Shown piece after piece: positions 3,239 through 19,067 of a stretch of 30,653 nucleotides of DNA. The translations under genes and the position numbers were made by a program. Under the pieces are notes generated by a model. The model did no database searches. It had not been told where the DNA came from and was given only the letters and a program-made list of their open reading frames with translations. The stretch covers positions 1 to 30,653 of IMG/VR virus record IMGVR_UViG_3300037153_000498; one strand, written 5' to 3'. How positions within the stretch are numbered: the stretch's first letter is position 1; every line of letters begins with the position of its first letter. This stretch comes from a virus.

Positions 3239-4441
3239 ATGACCCTGCCCAGCATCGGTAGCCCCGTGATCACCCAGCCCTGGAGTCAGGTGATCTTTCC
3301 GCCACCCACGGTGTTGCCGACCACACCCCCGATGACTGCTGCCCGGGCCAGGTCCATACCCAGTCTGGCCCGGGTACTGCAACTGATCAGCGGGCTGATC
3401 CGGCAAATGCCGATGGATGACTACCGGGGAGTGGACCCACTGCCCCGGCCACGGATGCTGGAGGCCCCAGACCCGACAGTCGCTCGATCATGGTGGGTCG
3501 GCAATCAGGTCGATGACTACCTGCTGCACGGGAACGCCGTGCACGTGATCACCAGCCGGGATGCCACCGGCTGGCCAGCATCGGCGGCCTGGGTGCCCGC
3601 TGAGTGGATCACCATCACGTGGGATATCGACCGTCCCGGCCAGGCCAGCTACTGGGTGGGTGGGGAACGGCTGCCCCAGCGGGATGTGGTGCATGTCCGG
3701 CGAGGGGCCGACCCCTGGTGCCCTTACCGGGGAGTGGGCTTGGTGGAACAGCACCTGGGCACGCTGACCCGGGTAGCCGCCGAGGAAGCCTACGAAGCAT
3801 CCATCCTGAGTGGGGCAGCTGTCCCGTCTGTGGTGGTGATCAGCCCCAACCCTGACCTGAGTCAGGAAGAAGCCACTGATGCCCAGACCATCTGGGAGAG
3901 CAAATACGGGGGCGACCGACGCAGGCCAGCGGTCCTGCCAGCCGGAACCCAGGTGATGCCACTGTCCTGGAGTCCCACCGATGCCCAACTGAACGAAGCC
4001 CGGAAGCTGTCCCTGCTGGATGTGGCGAACCTGGCCAACCTGGACGGCTACTGGGTGGGTGCCCCGGCATCCAGCTTCACCTACCGGTCCCCGGGCCCGA
4101 TGTATCTAAACCTGATCAGGCAGACGATTGCCCCGATCACCGAAGACTTCGAACTGACCTGGAGTGATGCTTGGTTGCCCCGGGGCCGACGGGTCCGATT
4201 CGACCGGTCTACGGTGCTCCGCGATGATCAAGCCACCGAGGTCAACACCTTGTCGAAAGCCATCACGTCCAAGATCATGACCGTGCCTGAGGCCCGGGTC
4301 TATCTCGGACTGACCCCGGAACCACCCCCGGAACTGGTGGACTCCGAACCGGAACCCCCGGCCATCCCTGGTGAAGACCTGCCGTCCACCACTAGCCCGG
4401 TCACCACCACCGGGGGCCCAGATGATCAGGAAGGAAGTTGA
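3239..4441 (+). CDS. Portal protein (HK97 family)
   Basis: A 400-aa protein that would form the dodecameric ring at the DNA entry vertex. Sequence typical of phage portals is seen around residues 65-130 (DYRGVD, VGNQVDDYLLHGNAV, PAEWITI) and in the later QIDQ-free helical part with LARGY-like replacement by APASSFTYRSPG. The C-terminal 50 residues are Pro/Glu/Thr-rich and probably disordered. The start is the ATG at 3239 rather than the TTG at 3233: GAGGAAG at 3224-3230 lies 8 nt before it, with the GATC in the spacer. It sits in the canonical position between large terminase and prohead protease. Confidence 0.88.
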   Translation: MTLPSIGSPVITQPWSQVIFPPPTVLPTTPPMTAARARSIPSLARVLQLISGLIRQMPMDDYRGVDPLPRPRMLEAPDPTVARSWWVGNQVDDYLLHGNAVHVITSRDATGWPASAAWVPAEWITITWDIDRPGQASYWVGGERLPQRDVVHVRRGADPWCPYRGVGLVEQHLGTLTRVAAEEAYEASILSGAAVPSVVVISPNPDLSQEEATDAQTIWESKYGGDRRRPAVLPAGTQVMPLSWSPTDAQLNEARKLSLLDVANLANLDGYWVGAPASSFTYRSPGPMYLNLIRQTIAPITEDFELTWSDAWLPRGRRVRFDRSTVLRDDQATEVNTLSKAITSKIMTVPEARVYLGLTPEPPPELVDSEPEPPAIPGEDLPSTTSPVTTTGGPDDQEGS

Positions 4442-4443
4442 TC

Positions 4444-5070
4444 ATGCTCGACACCATCACCCTGCGGGCCCCGGAGGTCCGGACCTTCCCGGCACTGGAG
4501 CTACGGGATGCCGAGTCGGACGGCCGATGGCTGACCGGTACGGCAGTGCCCTATGACGAGTGGGCCAACATCGGCTGGTTCCTGGAACAGCACGCGCGGT
4601 CCAGCTTCAGCAAGTCGATCACTGAAGCCGCCCAGAAGCTGCCGCTGTTGCTGTGGCATGACAACCGGTCGTTTCCGGTCGGGATCAGCGATCACTGGGC
4701 CGATGCCGCCGAAGGGCTGCAAGGCCGGTGGAAGATGGACGATAGCGAGGAAGCCAGCCGGGCCGCCGATCTTGCGTCCAAGGGCCTGCTGACCGGGCTC
4801 AGCATCGGCTTTGCCCCGATTCGGTCAGTCTGGCAGTACGTGGAAGATGATCAATGGGACCCGGACTTGGGTCCGGACCATATGGACCGGGTGACCCGGG
4901 TCGAATCCCGGCTGCTGGAGGTCAGCTTGACCCCGACTCCGGCCTTTGCCGGTGCCAAGGTCAGCCTGGTCCGGTCCCGGGTGCATCGGAACCGGACTCG
5001 TGAACCGGGGAAGCCCAGCCCGGAACTGGTCGGCTGGCGGAACTACCTGACCAGCATCAAGCGCGGCTGA
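4444..5070 (+). CDS. Prohead (capsid maturation) protease, HK97/S78 type
   Basis: A 208-aa serine protease that would process the capsid N-terminal delta domain and itself during head maturation. The family pattern is visible: the LLLWHD segment gives the catalytic His at about residue 72, the GLLTGLSIGF segment gives the Ser at about residue 120, and LEVSLTPTPAF follows at about residues 158-168. The ATG at 4444 is chosen over the TTG at 4438 because AGGAAGGAAG ends 6-7 nt upstream. Its stop overlaps the start of a small membrane protein (TGATG). The length fits the family. The position directly after portal and before the capsid gene strongly supports the call. Confidence 0.92.
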   Translation: MLDTITLRAPEVRTFPALELRDAESDGRWLTGTAVPYDEWANIGWFLEQHARSSFSKSITEAAQKLPLLLWHDNRSFPVGISDHWADAAEGLQGRWKMDDSEEASRAADLASKGLLTGLSIGFAPIRSVWQYVEDDQWDPDLGPDHMDRVTRVESRLLEVSLTPTPAFAGAKVSLVRSRVHRNRTREPGKPSPELVGWRNYLTSIKRG

Positions 5071-5572: not shown

Positions 5573-6883
5573 ATGCCGCGCCCGAACCCAGTGCTTCAGC
5601 GGCTGCTGGAGCAGCGAACCGAGCAGGAAACCTTCATCGATCAGCTTCTTGCCCGGGTGCAGGAAGAAGATCGTGATCTTGTCGATGCTGAGCGCTCCAA
5701 CCTGGAGGCTGCCCGGCAGCGGATCACTGAACTGGATGCCCAGATCAGCCCGCTGGAACAGTTCGAAGCCGTCCGGCAGGCCCATCAGGCAGCCCTGCCG
5801 AACGTCCAGCCCCGGCAGCGGCCAGCTGCCAGCGACCAGGCTCAGCGGGCCCCGCTGACCGTCCGTGATCGAGAACAGCACTACACCAGCCCCGGGGCTT
5901 TCGTAGTGGACTTCATCCGGGCCCGGGGCTACCCGGGGATGGGGCAGGCCCCGGATACCGACGCGCGCCAGCGGATCGGGGCTGCCCTTGGCCGTGACCT
6001 GGATGATGTGCTCCAGGCCCGGGCCATCGTCAACCAGACCACGGCCGACACCCCCGGCCTGCTGCCTGAGTTGATCATCGGCCAGATCAACACTGACCTG
6101 GATGCTTCCAGGCCGCTGATCGCCACCTTCGGGGCCCGGCCACTCGGGGGCATCCCGGGCAAGAAGTTCAACCGGCCGGTGGTCACCCAACACACCCAGG
6201 TAGGTGAGCAGACGGCAGAGAAGACCGAACTGCCCAGCCGACAGCTGAAGATCGATTCCGTGGAATGGTCTAAGCGAACCTTCGGCGGGGCCCTGGATGT
6301 GTCCCGGCAAGACATCGACTGGACCAGCCCGGCAGCCTGGGACGCCATCCTGACTGACCTTCAGGGCATGTACGCGGCCTTCACCGATGACGAGTGCGCC
6401 CAGGACTTCGCTACGGCTGTCACCACCGAAGTGCCGATCAGCGACCCCACGGACATCAAGGCCTGGGTGCAAGCGCTCTACGATGCAGCGGCGGCAGCGG
6501 CTGTCGGTGGAGTCCAGGGCCGGGCCACGGCTGCCCGGCTTCCGAACCACATCTGGGTGAGCATCGATCAGTGGGCTGCCCTGGGTGTGGTGATCGACTC
6601 CATCCGGGTCAGCGGGGTGCAGGCCCTGGCCCCCGGTGCGTCCAGCCCGACCACTTTCGCCGGAGACATCCTGAACGTGGCCAGGACCGTGGTCCCGGGC
6701 TTCCCAGAGGGAACGGTGATCGTCGGCCGGACGGACAAGTTCGAGGTCTATGAGGAACGGATCGGGCTGCTGTCGGCCATCGAGCCGAAGCTGCTGGGTG
6801 TCGAGATTGCCTATGGCGGTTATGCGGCCTGGGGCCCTCTCGACGCCACGTGCTTTGCCAAGGTGGCACCAGCGGGCCCTTAG
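5573..6883 (+). CDS. Major capsid protein, HK97 fold, with N-terminal delta domain
   Basis: A 436-aa shell protein. The first 90 or so residues are charged and helical (LLEQRTEQETFIDQLLARVQ and on), matching the scaffolding delta domain that the adjacent protease removes. The remainder fits the HK97 fold: LPELIIGQI, a central FGGALDVSRQDIDWTSP region, and the C-terminal GGYAAWGPLDATCFAKVAP strand. The ATG at 5573 is chosen over the GTG at 5543 because AAAGGTGG precedes it at proper spacing. The gene ends in a TAG placed directly behind a GGGCCCT slippery heptamer and a stable hairpin. A fraction of ribosomes should therefore make a longer form of about 509 aa. Confidence 0.92.
   Translation: MPRPNPVLQRLLEQRTEQETFIDQLLARVQEEDRDLVDAERSNLEAARQRITELDAQISPLEQFEAVRQAHQAALPNVQPRQRPAASDQAQRAPLTVRDREQHYTSPGAFVVDFIRARGYPGMGQAPDTDARQRIGAALGRDLDDVLQARAIVNQTTADTPGLLPELIIGQINTDLDASRPLIATFGARPLGGIPGKKFNRPVVTQHTQVGEQTAEKTELPSRQLKIDSVEWSKRTFGGALDVSRQDIDWTSPAAWDAILTDLQGMYAAFTDDECAQDFATAVTTEVPISDPTDIKAWVQALYDAAAAAAVGGVQGRATAARLPNHIWVSIDQWAALGVVIDSIRVSGVQALAPGASSPTTFAGDILNVARTVVPGFPEGTVIVGRTDKFEVYEERIGLLSAIEPKLLGVEIAYGGYAAWGPLDATCFAKVAPAGP
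6874..6880 (+). promoter_or_regulatory. Programmed -1 frameshift slippery site in capsid gene
   Basis: The heptamer G GGC CCT fits X XXY YYZ (GGG, CCC, T) exactly in the capsid reading frame and is followed immediately by the capsid stop TAG (6881-6883). Slipping back one base leads into the open -1 frame that encodes a recognisable domain. A perfect hairpin begins 5 nt downstream, the usual distance for a stimulator. Confidence 0.82.
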
Positions 6884-7101
6884 TCGCTACCGGGGCTAAT
6901 GCTGGGACCCCCGGTAGCTGGACACCAGCAGGCAGTGCGGCACCCGCCGATGTGGCAGCCCTGGCAGGGGCCAGCCCTGCCATCGTGGCCAATCCGGCTA
7001 CGCCATGGACCACCGGCCAGTATGTCCAGACCCAGACCGCTTCGACGGCTGGAGAGGCCACCTGGTCCGGGACCGGATGGGTTGGCGGAAGGGCACCGTA
7101 A
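6880..7101 (+). CDS. Capsid C-terminal extension domain, reached by -1 frameshift
   Basis: These 73 codons in the -1 frame begin LVATGANAGTPGSWTPAG and end WSGTGWVGGRAP. The domain is clearly homologous to the in-frame C-terminus of the major tail protein: both have the run ATGA-x-AGTPG-x-WTP, then SP/NPAT-x-W-x-TGQYV, then a WxGTxWxxGxAP end. In established phage biology, small surface domains such as Ig-like modules are often added to capsid or tail proteins by frameshift and decorate the virion, probably for weak binding to the cell surface. An independent gene starting at the GTG at 6850 is less likely, since that start lies inside the capsid gene without a good ribosome site. Expected location: the capsid exterior, in a minority of subunits. 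Confidence 0.8.
   Translation, partial: LVATGANAGTPGSWTPAGSAAPADVAALAGASPAIVANPATPWTTGQYVQTQTASTAGEATWSGTGWVGGRAP
6886..6918 (+). promoter_or_regulatory. Frameshift-stimulating hairpin
   Basis: GCTACCGGGG (6886-6895) pairs perfectly with CCCCGGTAGC (6909-6918) across a 13-nt loop. The stem starts 5 nt after the slippery heptamer, where it would meet the ribosome entry channel during decoding of the slippery codons. Confidence 0.8.
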
Positions 7102-7107
7102 TCGATC

Positions 7108-7434
7108 ATGATCACCACACTGGAGGATGTCCAGGCCTGGCTAGGGCCGGGCTATGACACACCCACGGTCACCCAGGCCTACAACGCCGCTGAGGCCTGG
7201 GTGAGCAAGCGGGTCCGCTACCCAGTGGTCAACCCGCTGGTGGAACCGCCCGAACCCCTGGAAGCCCCGGATGACCTGAAACAAGCCGTCCGGTTCCAGA
7301 CAGCCCGCTACCTGGCCCGACGCAACAGCCCGGACGGCATGGTGGGCCTGGGGGACCTGGGGGTGGCCCGGATTCCGGTCAGTGATCAAGATGTCCAGAC
7401 GTTGATCAATCCCTGGAGAAGGGTGGTCACGTGA
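7108..7434 (+). CDS. Head-tail connector / adaptor protein (gp6-like)
   Basis: A 108-aa, largely helical protein starting MITTLEDVQAWLG. A short DNA-packaging or connector protein with this helical layout (LEDVQAWLG, then TQAYNAAEAWVSKRVRYP, then LKQAVRFQTARYLARR) is typical directly after the capsid gene of HK97-type phages, where it forms the ring below the portal. The start ATG at 7108 lies 6 bp after the frameshift ORF stop and is preceded by CGATC. The stop overlaps the next GTG start (GTGA). The call rests on position, size and helical pattern; no search was done. Confidence 0.7.
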   Translation: MITTLEDVQAWLGPGYDTPTVTQAYNAAEAWVSKRVRYPVVNPLVEPPEPLEAPDDLKQAVRFQTARYLARRNSPDGMVGLGDLGVARIPVSDQDVQTLINPWRRVVT

Positions 7435-7838: not shown

Positions 7839-7849
7839 GACAGATGATC

Positions 7850-8467
7850 ATGGCATTCCAGCCATATAAGGCCAAGGATGTGGACCTGATCCTTGGTGAC
7901 GAAGTAGACGGTCCCAACTTCAAGTGCCAGCTGAGGTCCGTGGTGCTCACCCCGGACACTGACATCGAACGGATCAAGACCTTGTGCCCATCGGGCCAGT
8001 TCGCCAGTGTCAGCGACCCGGAATGGTCCCTGGAACTGGGTTACCTGTACGGCAAGGATGATTCCGACCCGGCAGCTGCCCTGGCCCGGTTCCTGCTGGA
8101 CAACAGCGGGCTTCAGGTGCCGTTCGTGTTCCGGCCCTGGTCCGGTGATGATCAGGAAGGCTACAAGGGTGTGGTGACCTGTGTTCCGGGCCCCATCGGT
8201 GGCGAGGAAGGCAGCTTCAGCGAGCAGTCCGTGAGTCTGCCGGTGGAAGGCCAGCCCGAACCGCTGACCGCTACGGTGGCCGCGACCGGTGCCACGGCAG
8301 GGACCCCGGGTCAGTGGACCCCGAGTGGGGCAGTCGCACCGGCCGACACCACCGGGATCACGGCCAGCCCGGCCACGGCCTGGTCCACTGGCCAGTACGT
8401 CACCTTGTCCAACGGTGACCACACCTACTGGGACGGGACGGCCTGGCAGGACGGGGAGGCACCGTAG
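7850..8467 (+). CDS. Major tail tube protein with C-terminal surface domain
   Basis: A 205-aa protein. Residues 1 to about 140 look like a tail tube subunit (beta-rich, with VDLILGDEVDGPNFKCQLRS and FVFRPWSGDD). The last 65 or so residues, from ATGATAGTPGQWTPSG to WDGTAWQDGEAP, form the domain also found behind the capsid frameshift. Here the domain is fused in frame, so every tube subunit would carry it on the outside of the tail. The second ATG, at 7850, is preferred over 7844 because of spacing from AGGACAG and the GATC-before-ATG habit of this genome. The next genes are the tail assembly chaperones, which confirms the identity. Confidence 0.85.
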   Translation: MAFQPYKAKDVDLILGDEVDGPNFKCQLRSVVLTPDTDIERIKTLCPSGQFASVSDPEWSLELGYLYGKDDSDPAAALARFLLDNSGLQVPFVFRPWSGDDQEGYKGVVTCVPGPIGGEEGSFSEQSVSLPVEGQPEPLTATVAATGATAGTPGQWTPSGAVAPADTTGITASPATAWSTGQYVTLSNGDHTYWDGTAWQDGEAP

Positions 8468-8470
8468 ATC

Positions 8471-8761
8471 ATGCCTCTGATCAGGTTGAGGCTCGAATAT
8501 GATCTTGCAAATCAGGATGGACCCGGCCGGGTAGTCGCTGATTTGCGGGACATGCGGGCCTGGGAGAAGGCGAACAATGGTCAGCCTTTTGCAGTGGACA
8601 CTCCTGATCTTGGAAGACTGAGCTACCTGGCTTGGCACGCTGCCCGACGCACCGGCCAGTATGCGGGCAGCTTCATGGAGTGGGACGCCATCTGCACCAG
8701 TGTGAGTGATCTTGGTGAGGAGGAAGTAAACCCTACCCAGCCGGGTCCTGGGGATTCCTGA
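8471..8761 (+). CDS. Tail assembly chaperone, short form (G-like)
   Basis: A 96-aa protein with ADLRDMRAWEKANNG and LSYLAWHAARRTGQYAG segments, the usual pattern of the first tail assembly chaperone of actinophages. It lies between major tail protein and tape measure, where lambda-type phages encode G and G-T. These proteins coat the tape measure during tail assembly and are absent from the virion. Its ATG at 8471 follows the previous stop by 3 bp with GATC between. Near the end it carries a slippery heptamer, so it also forms the N-terminus of a longer product. Confidence 0.85.
   Translation: MPLIRLRLEYDLANQDGPGRVVADLRDMRAWEKANNGQPFAVDTPDLGRLSYLAWHAARRTGQYAGSFMEWDAICTSVSDLGEEEVNPTQPGPGDS
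8728..8734 (+). promoter_or_regulatory. Programmed -1 frameshift site in tail chaperone gene
   Basis: A AAC CCT in frame fits X XXY YYZ (AAA, CCC, T). A short CCCAG/CTGGG stem (8736-8740 with 8748-8752) follows closely. The -1 frame is open from here to 8883. The second slip codon pair (CCC T) is the same as at the capsid site. Confidence 0.8.
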
Positions 8762-8883
8762 TCGTATCGCTAGCAGTCCGGTCGGGGCACCTGCCTGATG
8801 AGTGGGCCAGGCAGGACCCCGAGGACATCGCCACGGCGCTGATGATCTTCGATCAGCAGGATCAGCAGCGCCAGGAAGGTTGA
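8734..8883 (+). CDS. Tail assembly chaperone T extension (-1 frame)
   Basis: These 49 codons are read only after -1 slippage at 8728-8734. The peptide runs YPAGSWGFLIVSLAVRSG, then HLPDEWARQDPEDIATALMI, then a Gln-rich end. The combination of a Trp-containing hydrophobic start and a DEW...DPEDIATAL helix is typical of the T part of actinophage G-T proteins. The full product would be about 137 aa (88 shared plus 49). It ends 2 bp before the next start. Ratio control between G and G-T is known to matter for tail length assembly in lambda; the same is inferred here. Confidence 0.8.
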   Translation, partial: YPAGSWGFLIVSLAVRSGHLPDEWARQDPEDIATALMIFDQQDQQRQEG

Positions 8884-12300: not shown

Positions 12301-12439
12301 CCAGGTGATCACCATCAACGTGCACGGGGCACTTGATCCCGATGCCGTGGCCCGGCAGATTCAACGGCTGCTGGCCGACCACGACAGCCGAAGGGGTGGA
12401 GTGATCATGCCGTCCCGAACCAGGGTGAGCACATCATGA
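9320..12439 (+). CDS. Tape measure protein with M15-peptidase-like C-terminal domain
   Basis: A 1039-aa protein that sets tail length. Residues about 60-250 resemble the conserved N-terminal tape measure domain (MEQAKISFTTMLGSAQKADA, LRDAGIPVYDLLAKALG). Residues about 330-510 are a long series of hydrophobic helices (repeated LLPVL/LIPVV patterns), which may insert into the host membrane. Around residues 785-860 there is SYSGTSHAKDAVDLGP with His801 and Asp807, then WMPHIHGVPLPG with His838 and His840. This arrangement resembles the zinc ligands of M15 (VanY-type) peptidases and would open peptidoglycan during DNA entry; that part is inferred. Its stop overlaps the next ATG. Positions 10243-10291 recur almost unchanged at 19301-19349. 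Confidence 0.93.
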   Translation: MAIAERVMLAKFTAQTKELTKGISQVNGSISSVSTTTEKTNSKLGGIAKSMGKTMVVAGAAAATALVAVGGAAVKTGIKTASAMEQAKISFTTMLGSAQKADAFLRDLAKFAAETPFEFPELQTAASSLVSAGINADKVIPIMRTLGDVTSGMGTGSEGIKRATVALQQMNAAQKISGEDLNQLRDAGIPVYDLLAKALGKSKGEVVKLAQSGKLGKDALDKMMQALESGKGLERFNGLMEKQSKSLAGIWSNMKDTFQMGMAKAVQPLLPLIKEGLGGAMKALSGLMPFVQKGFTAFAKVAQPALAVILPLIENIGPALSGMAGSMSPVAIGFKLISGLMPELVKLFKTLGPVIMDLAKIIGQGVSDAIAALLPVLAELIKVLGPVLVQVLKALMPVVGTLIKSFVSLLPPILSIIKALLPLIPVVGQLVVALAPLLQILAELVAAFGPLIVVVAQLISSIVSQLVPAFQAVMPVVALVAKILGEGIATGAKIVIAIIQQIVKAFTWMFNVLVGGSIVPDLVKGILRWFGRLFSDGTAVIRKLVNTIVGLFQWLWSKLGAIAAGIRDSVVSRVRQLRDWALAAFRGLRDSANSIMDTARRWVVGRMTSLRDGVRSMANSARDAALNAFRYIRDKVGGIFSSAVSNISKVWGGLKNVLKAPISFLIDTVINKGLIGAFNWVARKVGAHTIGGLHIAGFDQGGWTGPGQRKKVAGAVHADEFVVRKSSRRRFEASHPGWLDYLNRTGQLPGYATGGRVNLRGKTFTARFAAAIQNAQKLAKTIFSLFQGGFRPATSYSGTSHAKDAVDLGPINAKVVRALRASGIAAWDRTGMGNWMPHIHGVPLPGFGTPGGSAVWQAQDYLRGGNGLGGRDNGAGSGYRPWPISGSQAAFFDLPSWMGKFKDVTKYLRDKIADSLKADWANNWWAQTISHVPGMIMSTAATGLGDLGQSIKEGFKEKFSFDSGGWLPPGVSLAVNRTGHPEPIGWDQLGREPSQVITINVHGALDPDAVARQIQRLLADHDSRRGGVIMPSRTRVSTS
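10243..10291. repeat. Tape measure segment duplicated at 19301-19349
   Basis: This is the source copy within the hydrophobic helix region of the tape measure gene. It fits the surrounding tape measure protein pattern, so it is probably the original and 19301-19349 the derived copy. Confidence 0.85.
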
Positions 12440-14988
12440 GGCCCAACGCCGACTGCGAGGTCTGGCTAGACGGCAATCCGGCCGCGTGCACCGTGGACAC
12501 CCTGAAGGCCGGGATTCCCACCGTGCTGGAAGGCCTGGCCGTCCACTGGGGCAGGCAGAACCAGCTGGAACAGCCCGACATCGGCACCTGCACCTTCACC
12601 ATGCGGGATGAACGGGCCAGCAGCGATGCCCTGACAATTGCCCACGTCGGCGCGGATGTCCAGGTCTACGCCACCGGGAAGGTGCCCACACCCCAGGACC
12701 AGCCGGTGGTCAATGATGGCGGCTGGGAAATGATCAAGACCGGGGCCCTGCCGACCAATCGGTATCGGCTGATCAGCGGCACCCCGAAGGTGATCGTGAC
12801 CACCACCCAGCACCGTACCGGCCAGCAGGCCCTACGGCTGGCCCCAGGCAGCCCCGTGGTCGATGCCACCAACCTGGCCACCAACCCCAGCATGGAAGGC
12901 GGTGTGCTCACCGGCTGGGCTTCAGCTAACGCTTCCCTGTACCCGGTCATCTTGGACAGTTCGGCACCGATCAGCGGGACTTGCTCAGCCGTGTCCACTC
13001 GGCAGTCGGCCACGATCAACACCACAGCCGCCACCTTCCAAATTACCGGCCAGGTGGGTTCACCTGCCTGGATTCCGATCAGCAACGGCGTTCCGATCAC
13101 CGTGGGGCTTGACCTGAAGGCTGAGCTTGCTAACCGGCAGGTCCGGGTTTCCATGAACCAGTACGACGCTAATGGCACCTTCCTGGCCGCTACCCCTTAC
13201 AGCGTGCCGATTCCCGCCACCGTGGCCGGGCAGGTCCAGCGAATCGTCGTCACGATCACCCCGAACCAGGCGACGGCAGCCCGGGGCTATCTGATCGTTG
13301 CCGTGATCAGCAATTCCGGGAACGTCACCACTGGTGAACGGGTCTGGGTTGACAACCTGATGATCGGTGGTGACGGGACCTACTTTGATGGCAGCACCCC
13401 GGCCGGTGGCGGCTACACCTACCGGTGGACCGGGGCAGTCAACGCATCGACCAGCCAGCGGCTGTCCAGTCAGGTCAAGATCATCTTTCCGCCGCTGCCG
13501 TTCTCCCCCGAAGGTGGCGACCCCACGGCCTGGGATGCCGTGCCTCAGATGTCACCTGGCGATTCCTGGCCGGTGAGTCTCTGGGTCCGGCTGCCAGCTG
13601 GCACCAAGGCCAGCTTGATCACAGCCACCAGCCCCACCCCGTACGCCTCCGATGTCGGCCCGTCCACTGCCCCGGCATCGGAGGTCACCAGCACCGGCAG
13701 CTGGCAGCAAATCACCGGTACGGTGCCCAACTCCAGTGGTGGTATGGCCTGGCCGCTGATCGGGGTTCAGGCCAGCCTGCCCAGCCCCAGCCGTTGGCAG
13801 GACCAGGGCACTACCATCTGGACCGATCATCCGGAAACCTGGCAGGTGGGCTATTCGGATGTCTTCCTGGATGATCTTGTGATTACCGGGCCCCAGACCT
13901 TCAATCGCCGCGTGCTGGTGTTCGCCGGAACGGTCACCGATGTGGTGGTGGAACCGGTCACCGATGATGTGATCACCCTGACCCTGACCGCTGCCGACAT
14001 CGGGGCAGCCCTTCAGAATGACGCTATCGGGGACGAACCCTGGCCCAGCGAGGCCTTGATCATCCGGTCCAACAAGATCACTAGCTTGGCCCACCTTCAG
14101 GTTCCGGTGATCGTGGATACCAACCTTCAGCAGGTCATGATCAGCTATCGGGACGTGGACGCTCAACCGGTGCTGGCCCTGCTGCAAGACCTGGCCCAGT
14201 CCGTGTCAGCCACCCTATGGACCGCCACCCACGGCACAGCGGGCAGCTACTTCTGGATGGAGGACCCTGATGACCGGGTATCGGTCCGGGCCCTTCAGGT
14301 CGATCCGGGCAGTGGGCTGATCACGATCACGGCCAGCAACCGGGATGTGTCCGTGCTGTCGGCCAGTGACATTCTGCGGGACCCGGTGCGGCTGACCCAG
14401 ACAGTCAATGAAGTGATCACCGTGGTGCAAGTGACCTGGCTGGAACAGACCCTGGACGATGAAGGCAAATCGGCCCCCACCGAACGGATCACCACGGTGA
14501 CCGATGATGATGCTGCTGAGCAGTACGGCAGGCGGCGGCTGGGAATCACTACGGACTTGATTGACGACACAGCTGCCAACGAACTGGGCAGCAAGCTGCT
14601 GGCCCGGTCCCGGAAAACCGGCTGGCGCGCCGACAGCTACACCTGGGACACCGGCCGGGTCAAAGATCATCTGGACACGGTGTCCGACGATTCCCGGCAG
14701 GTAGCCCTGATGGACTTGCTGGATGGAGGGACCCGGATCGGTAAGGCCCTGACCTTGATCGACTTGCCCACCTGGATGCCAGCGGACACCATCGCATCGA
14801 TGTACGTGGAAGGCGGCACCTACACCTTCCGGGGGGCCTGGGGACTGGAACTGACGATCAGCCCGGCTCAGGGTCAGGGGCAGTCGGTCCGCTGGGCTGG
14901 CCTTCCGGCAAACGATCAGTGGCAGTGGCAGGACTGGAGTCCTGATCTTCACTGGATGGACCTGTACGGGGTTGCCGGACCGAATTGA
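12436..14988 (+). CDS. Large minor tail protein with carbohydrate-binding-like domains
   Basis: An 850-aa protein directly after the tape measure, overlapping it by ATGA. The start resembles the distal tail/minor tail proteins of actinophages (CEVWLDGNPAACTVDTLKAG, CTFTMRDERASSD). Residues about 145-320 look like a CBM4/9-type beta sandwich (NLATNPSMEGGVLTGW at the start, YFDGSTPAGGGYTYRW at the end), and a second beta-rich insertion covers about residues 350-480. The C-terminal half continues as a baseplate-like protein. It probably sits at the tail tip and binds cell-wall sugars. Domain naming is by eye. Confidence 0.8.
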   Translation: MRPNADCEVWLDGNPAACTVDTLKAGIPTVLEGLAVHWGRQNQLEQPDIGTCTFTMRDERASSDALTIAHVGADVQVYATGKVPTPQDQPVVNDGGWEMIKTGALPTNRYRLISGTPKVIVTTTQHRTGQQALRLAPGSPVVDATNLATNPSMEGGVLTGWASANASLYPVILDSSAPISGTCSAVSTRQSATINTTAATFQITGQVGSPAWIPISNGVPITVGLDLKAELANRQVRVSMNQYDANGTFLAATPYSVPIPATVAGQVQRIVVTITPNQATAARGYLIVAVISNSGNVTTGERVWVDNLMIGGDGTYFDGSTPAGGGYTYRWTGAVNASTSQRLSSQVKIIFPPLPFSPEGGDPTAWDAVPQMSPGDSWPVSLWVRLPAGTKASLITATSPTPYASDVGPSTAPASEVTSTGSWQQITGTVPNSSGGMAWPLIGVQASLPSPSRWQDQGTTIWTDHPETWQVGYSDVFLDDLVITGPQTFNRRVLVFAGTVTDVVVEPVTDDVITLTLTAADIGAALQNDAIGDEPWPSEALIIRSNKITSLAHLQVPVIVDTNLQQVMISYRDVDAQPVLALLQDLAQSVSATLWTATHGTAGSYFWMEDPDDRVSVRALQVDPGSGLITITASNRDVSVLSASDILRDPVRLTQTVNEVITVVQVTWLEQTLDDEGKSAPTERITTVTDDDAAEQYGRRRLGITTDLIDDTAANELGSKLLARSRKTGWRADSYTWDTGRVKDHLDTVSDDSRQVALMDLLDGGTRIGKALTLIDLPTWMPADTIASMYVEGGTYTFRGAWGLELTISPAQGQGQSVRWAGLPANDQWQWQDWSPDLHWMDLYGVAGPN

Positions 14989-17891: not shown

Positions 17892-17923
17892 ACTGAGCGG
17901 CCAGCCGTCCCGGCAGGTGGAAT

Positions 17924-17948
17924 GATCAAGGAAGGCAGTGGAGACATG
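17924..17948 (+). promoter_or_regulatory. Start-associated sequence, integrase copy
   Basis: GATCAAGGAAGGCAGTGGA ends just before the integrase ATG at 17946. The same 19 bases precede the ATG at 25838, more than 7 kb away. The AAGGAAGG part serves as ribosome binding site, which decides the start at 17946 rather than the ATG at 17922. Confidence 0.7.
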
Positions 17949-19067
17949 GCGTGGACCGAAAGCAAGATCATCGACGGGCAGCCCTGGTATCGGGGCCGGT
18001 GGCGGACGGCCGGGAAGAAGCAGCAGACCGACTGGCTGCCCAGCATCCATCAGGCGGGCTGGCTGGCCGAACTGGCGGAAAAGGGGGAGATAGACCTGAC
18101 CGATGCGGATCGGGTAGCTGACCTGGACCCCAGCCCCGATCCGACCCTGGCCCAGTTCACCCAGCAGTGGCTGGACCGACAGCGGGCCAACGTGCCGGAC
18201 AGCCTGAACATGAACACCTGGAAGTCCTACCGGGGCCGGGTGACTCACTGGACCGGTTCCCCCATCGGCAGGAAGTTGATCAAGAATCTGACCTGGGCCG
18301 ACATCGACAGCTGGCGGCAGCAGCTGGACGGCAGGGCCAGCACGAAGAATCAGGTGATCAAGCTACTGGAGACTGTCTACCGGGATGCCTATCGGCGGGG
18401 CCTGGTCCGGGACCTGATGGCCATCACTGACCAGCGACGCGCCAAAGGCCGGGTAAAGCACGGCTGGAAGCTGGAGGACTGGGAAGAAGACCAGCTGCTG
18501 GCCGCTGCCGAGGACGATCCGGACATGAAGCTGATGATCATGCTGGGTCTGGATGCTGGCCTCAGATGGGGTGAAGTGGCAGCCCTGAAGGTGGGGGACG
18601 TGCGGCTGAGCGACGCCAGCCCCTACCTGATGGTCATGGAGACGATCACCAACGTGACCGAAGTTGGCACGGTCAAGGGCACCAACCATCGTGGTGAGGA
18701 TGAGGAACCCCGCGAGATACCCCTGAGCCCCCGGCTGATCCAGGCCCTGAAGCCCAAGCTGGCAGAAGCCCGGCTGCGGGGTGGCAGGCAAGCCCATCTG
18801 TTCCAGGCGCCCTGGGGTGGGACCGTGCGCTACGCCACCTGGAATCGCTACTTCACCAAGATCAAGATGGCGGCCTTTGGTCACGATGGGGTCCGGCTGA
18901 AGGGCCACGACCTTCGGCGCACCTTCGCTTCCAAGATGGAGGCCCGGGGGCTGTCCGGGTCCCAGGTCCAGTACCTGCTGGGCCACCAGTCGCTGAGCAC
19001 CACCCAGCTGTATCTGAAGCTGGGGGCCAGCGACCGGGCAGCCATGGCCAAGGCCGTGGCCGCATGA
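17946..19067 (+). CDS. int: Tyrosine integrase
   Basis: A 373-aa site-specific recombinase that would insert and excise the phage genome at attB/attP. The catalytic set is complete: Arg207 in GLRWGEVAAL, His321 and Arg324 in GHDLRRTF, His347 in LLGHQSLSTT and Tyr356 in QLYLKL. The N-terminal part (about residues 60-150) matches an arm/core-binding SAM-like domain (QWLDRQRANVPDS, RVTHWTGSPIG). The ATG at 17946 is chosen because of the AAGGAAGG site. It is followed by a strong hairpin terminator. It makes the phage temperate. The attP site was not located, but the AT-rich stretch upstream is a candidate. Confidence 0.95.
   Translation: MAWTESKIIDGQPWYRGRWRTAGKKQQTDWLPSIHQAGWLAELAEKGEIDLTDADRVADLDPSPDPTLAQFTQQWLDRQRANVPDSLNMNTWKSYRGRVTHWTGSPIGRKLIKNLTWADIDSWRQQLDGRASTKNQVIKLLETVYRDAYRRGLVRDLMAITDQRRAKGRVKHGWKLEDWEEDQLLAAAEDDPDMKLMIMLGLDAGLRWGEVAALKVGDVRLSDASPYLMVMETITNVTEVGTVKGTNHRGEDEEPREIPLSPRLIQALKPKLAEARLRGGRQAHLFQAPWGGTVRYATWNRYFTKIKMAAFGHDGVRLKGHDLRRTFASKMEARGLSGSQVQYLLGHQSLSTTQLYLKLGASDRAAMAKAVAA

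Follow-up and report, generated by a model that had tools for sequence, protein, structure and literature searches.

Several phages are known to make two products from one capsid gene by frameshifting at its 3′ end, with the shifted product gaining a C-terminal domain. The T3 10B protein and the head protein of Lactobacillus phage A2 are capsid proteins extended by a −1 shift, and among Listeria phages the shift is −1 in A118 and A500 and +1 in PSA (PMC5009743). A comparable arrangement is found in the tail tube of SPP1, where gp17.1 and gp17.1* (3:1) place an FN3 surface domain on a fraction of the subunits (PMC6316719). In both SPP1 (PMC6316719) and the tsh gene of Listeria phages (PMC5009743), the slip occurs on a proline codon directly 5′ of the stop codon, and the shift is +1, with CCC UAA or CCC UGA re-pairing as CCU. 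In the lactococcal 936 phage protein TpeX, a frameshift after the first tail surface domain adds another (PMC6669499). C-terminal extensions common to capsid and tail proteins have likewise been described in the mycobacteriophages Bxb1, LeBron and Wildcat (PMC3029335), and reviews have suggested that frameshift-expressed surface domains originate when a domain happens to land out of frame and selection then acts (PMC5009743).

As we will argue below, the capsid gene of an uncultured soil phage, analysed within a window of 30,653 nt (the whole stretch of DNA, to which all coordinates refer), resembles these systems in several respects and departs from them in others. Its best explanation, to which we assign a probability of roughly 0.87, is programmed −1 frameshifting at the 3′ end of the gene, brought about by a portable unit of slip site, stem and domain. 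The gene and its relevant neighbors are as follows:

4438–5070, + strand: capsid maturation protease gene, upstream of the capsid gene (phrog_80, E = 1.2e-20).
5573–6883, + strand: major capsid protein gene, 436 aa, HK97 fold with an N-terminal helical scaffold-like segment (phrog_2263, E = 1e-41).
7108–7434, + strand: head–tail connector gene, starting 6 nt past the stop codon of the extension (phrog_5938, E = 1.3e-10).
7844–8467, + strand: major tail protein gene, which carries the domain in frame at 8276–8464 (phrog_4574, E = 3.7e-9), the second match to the domain within this genome.

In structure comparisons, the predicted capsid model matches HK97 gp5 and actinophage capsids, and the cultured relatives of the protein are mycobacteriophage capsids at 24–31% identity. 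Between the major tail protein and tape measure genes lies a tail assembly chaperone-like gene (8471–8761), in which an in-frame A AAC CCT (8728–8734), again with the proline codon CCU in the slip site, leads into an open −1 frame with its stop at about 8881–8883. Elsewhere in the window, a tyrosine integrase gene (17922–19067) points to a temperate lifestyle, and the large tail-module protein encoded at 12436–14988 carries a CBM_4_9 carbohydrate-binding domain. No tRNA genes were found in the window, and a host search of 396 genomes from the phylum of a Streptomyces genome gave no match.

The capsid reading frame ends in GCG GGC CCT TAG, the stop codon TAG occupying positions 6881–6883. The original prediction had read here an in-frame GGGCCCT heptamer, an immediate TAG, a 5-nt spacer, a perfect 10-bp hairpin and a 73-codon open −1 frame whose peptide is homologous to another virion protein of this phage, and all of these elements are present as described. 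The features at this site are listed here, with related sequences given by their L numbers:

6832–6838, + strand: a second in-frame G GGC CCT in the same −1 frame, probably incidental (direct reading; destroyed by 6835 C>T in L003).
6874–6880, + strand: G GGC CCT heptamer, fitting X XXY YYZ (direct reading; common to L084, absent in L056 and L067).
6877–6883, + strand: C CCT TAG, the conserved slip core, a proline codon followed by the immediate capsid stop (identical in the window, L067, L056/L122 and L084).
6880–7101, + strand: −1 frame extension, a 73-aa Trp/Gly/Pro-rich domain plus TAA stop (from translation, selection and AF2 modeling).
6886–6895, + strand: 5′ arm of the putative stimulatory stem, GCTACCGGGG (identical in L056 and L067).
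6909–6918, + strand: 3′ arm of the putative stimulatory stem, CCCCGGTAGC (as in L056/L067 except for one G-C to G-U change).

Both G GGC CCT and C CCT TAG are in-frame sites that would allow tRNA re-pairing at −1, and it is the core that is conserved. The GGGCCCT heptamer alone is weak evidence, because the identical copy at 6832–6838 is lost by one substitution in L003, which is another contig of the same phage; moreover, GGGCCCT is present in only two of five frameshift-type junctions. The element common to the junctions is instead a proline CCT with C before and T after, on which the Pro-tRNA can move from CCU to CCC. Of the two signals that were to be compared across related phages, the stem is retained in L056 and L067, and the conserved part of the slip site is the core C CCT TAG, not the heptamer.

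These five junctions are independent of each other, lack a usable start codon and all require a −1 shift (5/5, with +1 in none); their host genes are two capsid genes, two tail-tube genes and one protease–capsid fusion gene. The window junction, in the capsid gene, reads GCG GGC CCT TAG TC GCTACCGGGG; that of L067, whose capsid is 78% identical to the window's, reads GTA ACC CCT TAG CA GCTACCGGGG; and that of L056, which lies in a phrog_792 tail protein gene and was found again in another sample as L122, reads ATC GCC CCT TAG TA GCTACCGGGG. The L084 junction, in a phrog_4574 tail protein gene, is GCG GGC CCT TAG without a matching stem, and the L107 junction, in a phrog_3270 protease–capsid fusion gene, is CCC CCT TTA GCG TAG without a stem. 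C CCT TAG is thus common to four of the five, in two capsid genes and two tail families (phrog_792 and phrog_4574), and the window's capsid gene and the L084 tail gene have 15 nt in common, CCAGCGGGCCCTTAG. The compact slip–stop arrangement of the window is also present in other phages.

Several further observations concern these and neighboring sequences. In L107 (2550–2570), a canonical C CCT TTA heptamer leads into the domain; the L107 gene has relatives among cultured Gordonia and Streptomyces phages, of which the Gordonia one that was checked lacks the domain. The tail protein of L056 (605–1011) and L122 already contains the domain once in frame, and a −1 shift would give access to another copy, so that some of its subunits would bear two. 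The L004 contig, another assembly of the same phage, is identical to the window over approximately 6.7 kb except for five substitutions within 63 bases (window 8272–8334), at the tail protein's domain copy and near the contig end; local recombination, a strain mixture or an assembly edge are alternative explanations for this cluster. Two further candidate junctions were rejected: L228, considered as a +1 junction, proved to be a long gene read in frame, while the L100 domain has start codons of its own and is separated by 71 nt from the end of the upstream frame.

The arms of the stem are exact reverse complements, giving ten perfect base pairs around a 13-nt loop (6896–6908); the structure begins 2 nt past the TAG and 5 nt past the CCT codon, at a distance suitable for a putative stimulatory role. 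A 45-nt fold has an energy of −22.7 kcal/mol (z = −3.1); an 87-nt fold is not unusual (z = +0.7) and prefers a different structure in which the slip site is paired, a pairing that a ribosome on the slip site would prevent. With the peptide and phage codon usage held fixed, a perfect ten-pair stem (G-U allowed) has p ~7e-4 in the window, and the same test gives p of 8e-4 to 1.1e-3 for the L056 and L067 copies. Among 119 parseable copies of the domain, only these three reach 10/10 pairs (G-U allowed) at the exact position, the runner-up having 8. The contrast weakens once stems are permitted at any position close to where the domain begins: a few non-frameshift copies then also reach at least 10 pairs, and the window, L056 and L067 copies come 2nd, 3rd and 5th among 145. 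Minimum free energies relative to synonymous shuffles are modest (z of −1.3 to −2.2). Compared with these pairing statistics, conservation at silent sites is the strongest evidence: all six stem codons are identical in the window, L056 and L067, whereas among the other codons for shared residues 3 of 28 are (hypergeometric p ~6e-5, calculated by hand with the slip codon TTA set aside), which argues for selection on the stem at the RNA level. The three cassettes may share descent, and hence may not represent three fully independent tests. A strong stem is absent in L084 and L107, so the stem is not obligatory. A pseudoknot between the loop and downstream sequence (GCTGG, 6901–6905, with CCAGC, 6925–6929) is possible in the window, but the partner lies elsewhere in L056 and L067, and we do not claim it; an Rfam search of the window gave no match.

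Reading in the −1 frame from TTA at 6880 through 73 codons to TAA at 7099–7101 yields the peptide LVATGANAGTPGSW...VGGRAP. This long open frame overlaps the end of the capsid gene and encodes a conserved domain, which is 60% identical (51% with gaps) to the end of the phage's own major tail protein at 8276–8464. Selection acts at the amino-acid level (pN ~0.25 versus pS 0.6–0.74, against other frameshift copies), and the AF2 model of the domain has a pLDDT of 96.6, so that it is confidently predicted to fold independently. No PDB match was obtained for the domain model (Foldseek best E = 8.6; no match with VIA-align), and Pfam does not recognize the domain apart from a weak DUF2510 match in one member. 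One weak PDB hit, to a fucose lectin (E = 0.03), was set aside. The known frameshift-added domains to which the original prediction appealed are well established (T3, A2, SPP1, Listeria) and often Ig-like, but for the present domain we found no PDB or Ig-type Pfam match, and the absence of a match is not proof of a different fold. The sole viral structure match is the phiCAM major tail protein (BFVD, E = 3.6e-8, rmsd 1.5), and a domain profile matches the R4 major tail protein with homology over the whole domain (E = 1.6e-25). Protein searches of cultured phages place the domain at the ends of Streptomyces R4-like tail proteins; the L056 copy had no match in a protein search of cultured phages, a DNA-level search of cultured phages with the junction found none, and a pattern scan of genome contigs returned 69 stretches, none of which has the domain.

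The wider distribution of the domain bears on the principal alternative, namely that the −1 frame is translated from a start of its own, as a small independent decoration gene, with no frameshift. Scans of viral contigs recovered 145 distinct domain copies, mechanically classified as 88 in frame within longer genes and 49 in small frames of their own, the rest being startless or ambiguous. The majority sit either at the in-frame ends of tail proteins or in small separate genes downstream of the capsid gene. A separate gene is the main rival because, among capsids of the window's family, the domain lies in a non-fused frame behind the gene in 28 phages, needs a frameshift in 2 and is fused in frame in 0. 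An ATG is available in 43 of the 49 separate frames, and the window itself has a GTG at 6850 that is in register with the domain and whose duplex score is at least as good as that of the capsid's own start. However, this GTG sits within the capsid gene and would yield the leader VLCQGGTSGP, and the domain starts directly after the slip, without the leader seen in separate genes. Moreover, ATG, GTG and TTG are wholly absent from the domain's open frame in L056, L084 and L107, yet L056 and L084 have the slip core and L056 also has the stem. Initiation at such a codon is thus excluded in those three and appears unlikely in the window, and we regard a separate gene as improbable overall. In the cultured relatives MooMoo (L030, 5052–5216) and prophiGD91-2 (L029, 5206–5349), a tiny charged gene without the domain lies directly behind the capsid gene; it may be the counterpart of the leader that precedes the domain in the separate genes.

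Slightly less probable again is that a decoration gene recombined out of frame and left the domain frame behind as a relic, with negligible frameshifting and an accidental stem and slip site. Such a history would fit the nearest full-length capsid relative (L005, 56%), which has neither slip site nor domain, and the two frameshift-type copies that lack the stem. It is at odds with the low pN/pS ratio, the uninterrupted frame and the confident fold prediction, with the preservation of stem silent sites among copies whose proteins are merely 65–66% identical (L056 and L067 relative to the window), and with the identical C CCT TAG in four junctions, every one of them −1. An error in assembly or sequencing might also have introduced the break into a gene truly fused in frame, a reading that draws on how common in-frame fusions to longer genes are (88/145), but no such fusion to a capsid of the window's family was found, and homologous junctions occur in L067 and L056/L122. 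Slip, stop and stem are identical in L003 and L004, both other assemblies of the same phage, and the L056 junction is repeated as L122, which argues against sequencing indels; we consider such an error extremely unlikely. The original prediction of programmed −1 frameshifting, by which the capsid protein gains a folded domain, is strongly supported by the comparative sequence evidence, with L067 keeping slip, stop, 2-nt gap, stem and domain, and with the slip reused in two tail genes.

From the sequence anatomy and comparative selection observed here, we infer the slip itself, its frequency and the incorporation of its product, which would proceed as follows. The majority of ribosomes would terminate at the TAG, giving the 436-aa capsid protein. 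Some would stall during decoding or translocation of CCU, held by the stem 5 nt beyond and the stop codon behind it; the 5-nt distance suggests that CCU would be in the A site when the stem is met. The Pro-tRNA would then re-pair one base back, from CCU to CCC, and reading would continue with TTA GTC, producing a 509-aa capsid protein with the C-terminal 73-aa domain. Tandem slippage of the GGC and CCU tRNAs would be possible in the window and L084. In L067 and L056, by contrast, the codons preceding CCU (ACC and GCC) re-pair poorly, so the Pro-tRNA would have to slip on its own, either while it is being translocated or afterwards, when UAG is the next codon. A single slip of the Pro-tRNA at C CCU UAG, helped by the stem and the stop, would be the simplest explanation covering all of these junctions. 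Tandem and single slips give the same protein, and the AGP-LVATG junction is unchanged by the route. A minority of capsid subunits would presumably carry the domain on the outside of the shell; it would very probably stick out from the head, much as its in-frame sister copies are expected to do on tail tubes.

Like the T3, A2 and Listeria capsid genes, then, this gene would yield two products, but the T3 and A2 extensions are Ig-like and the window domain is without an Ig or PDB match. The slip core also differs: that of the A2-like phage BH1 is CCCAAAA (PMC6950654), whereas here it is C CCU UAG, in which the stop follows the proline codon at once. The proline codon directly 5′ of the stop, CCT TAG in four junctions, recalls SPP1 and Listeria tsh, but the shift here would be −1, from CCU to CCC before UAG and with a 3′ stem. 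L056 resembles TpeX in adding another tail surface domain, but the domains differ and the present finding is mainly on the head. Bxb1, LeBron and Wildcat likewise carry one kind of ~70-aa domain on both the head and the tail of the same virion, but the extensions of Bxb1 and LeBron, the two compared, are in frame and do not match the window domain; the R4-like Streptomyces tail proteins have a homologous C-terminal domain, but in frame, and a frameshift was not seen there. The literature searched yielded no account of a phage structural gene with a −1 “shifty stop”, in which the Pro-tRNA moves from CCU to CCC while UAG is the following codon.

Three features would be new here: the domain lies outside the Ig family by the tests used; the slip would take place in the −1 direction on a proline codon next to a stop, accompanied by a conserved stem that the coding sequence of the domain itself supplies; and head genes and tail genes alike make use of the unit. 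On the comparative evidence, slip core, stem and domain appear to be one unit placed behind capsid and tail-tube genes; because signal and domain recur there together, they would offer a reusable means of adding a surface domain to some subunits. That this unit is a mobile recoding cassette, in which the domain's own first codons form the stem and, together with C CCU UAG, turn head and tail genes into two-product genes with a −1 shifty stop inside, is a tentative proposal that we hold at a little under even odds. The finding adds an apparently non-Ig surface domain that is widespread in actinophages, and a compact slip–stop–stem design that should be easily testable. Since the slip core and the domain-codon stem recur behind both capsid and tail genes, it also raises the question of whether recoding signals travel with domains.
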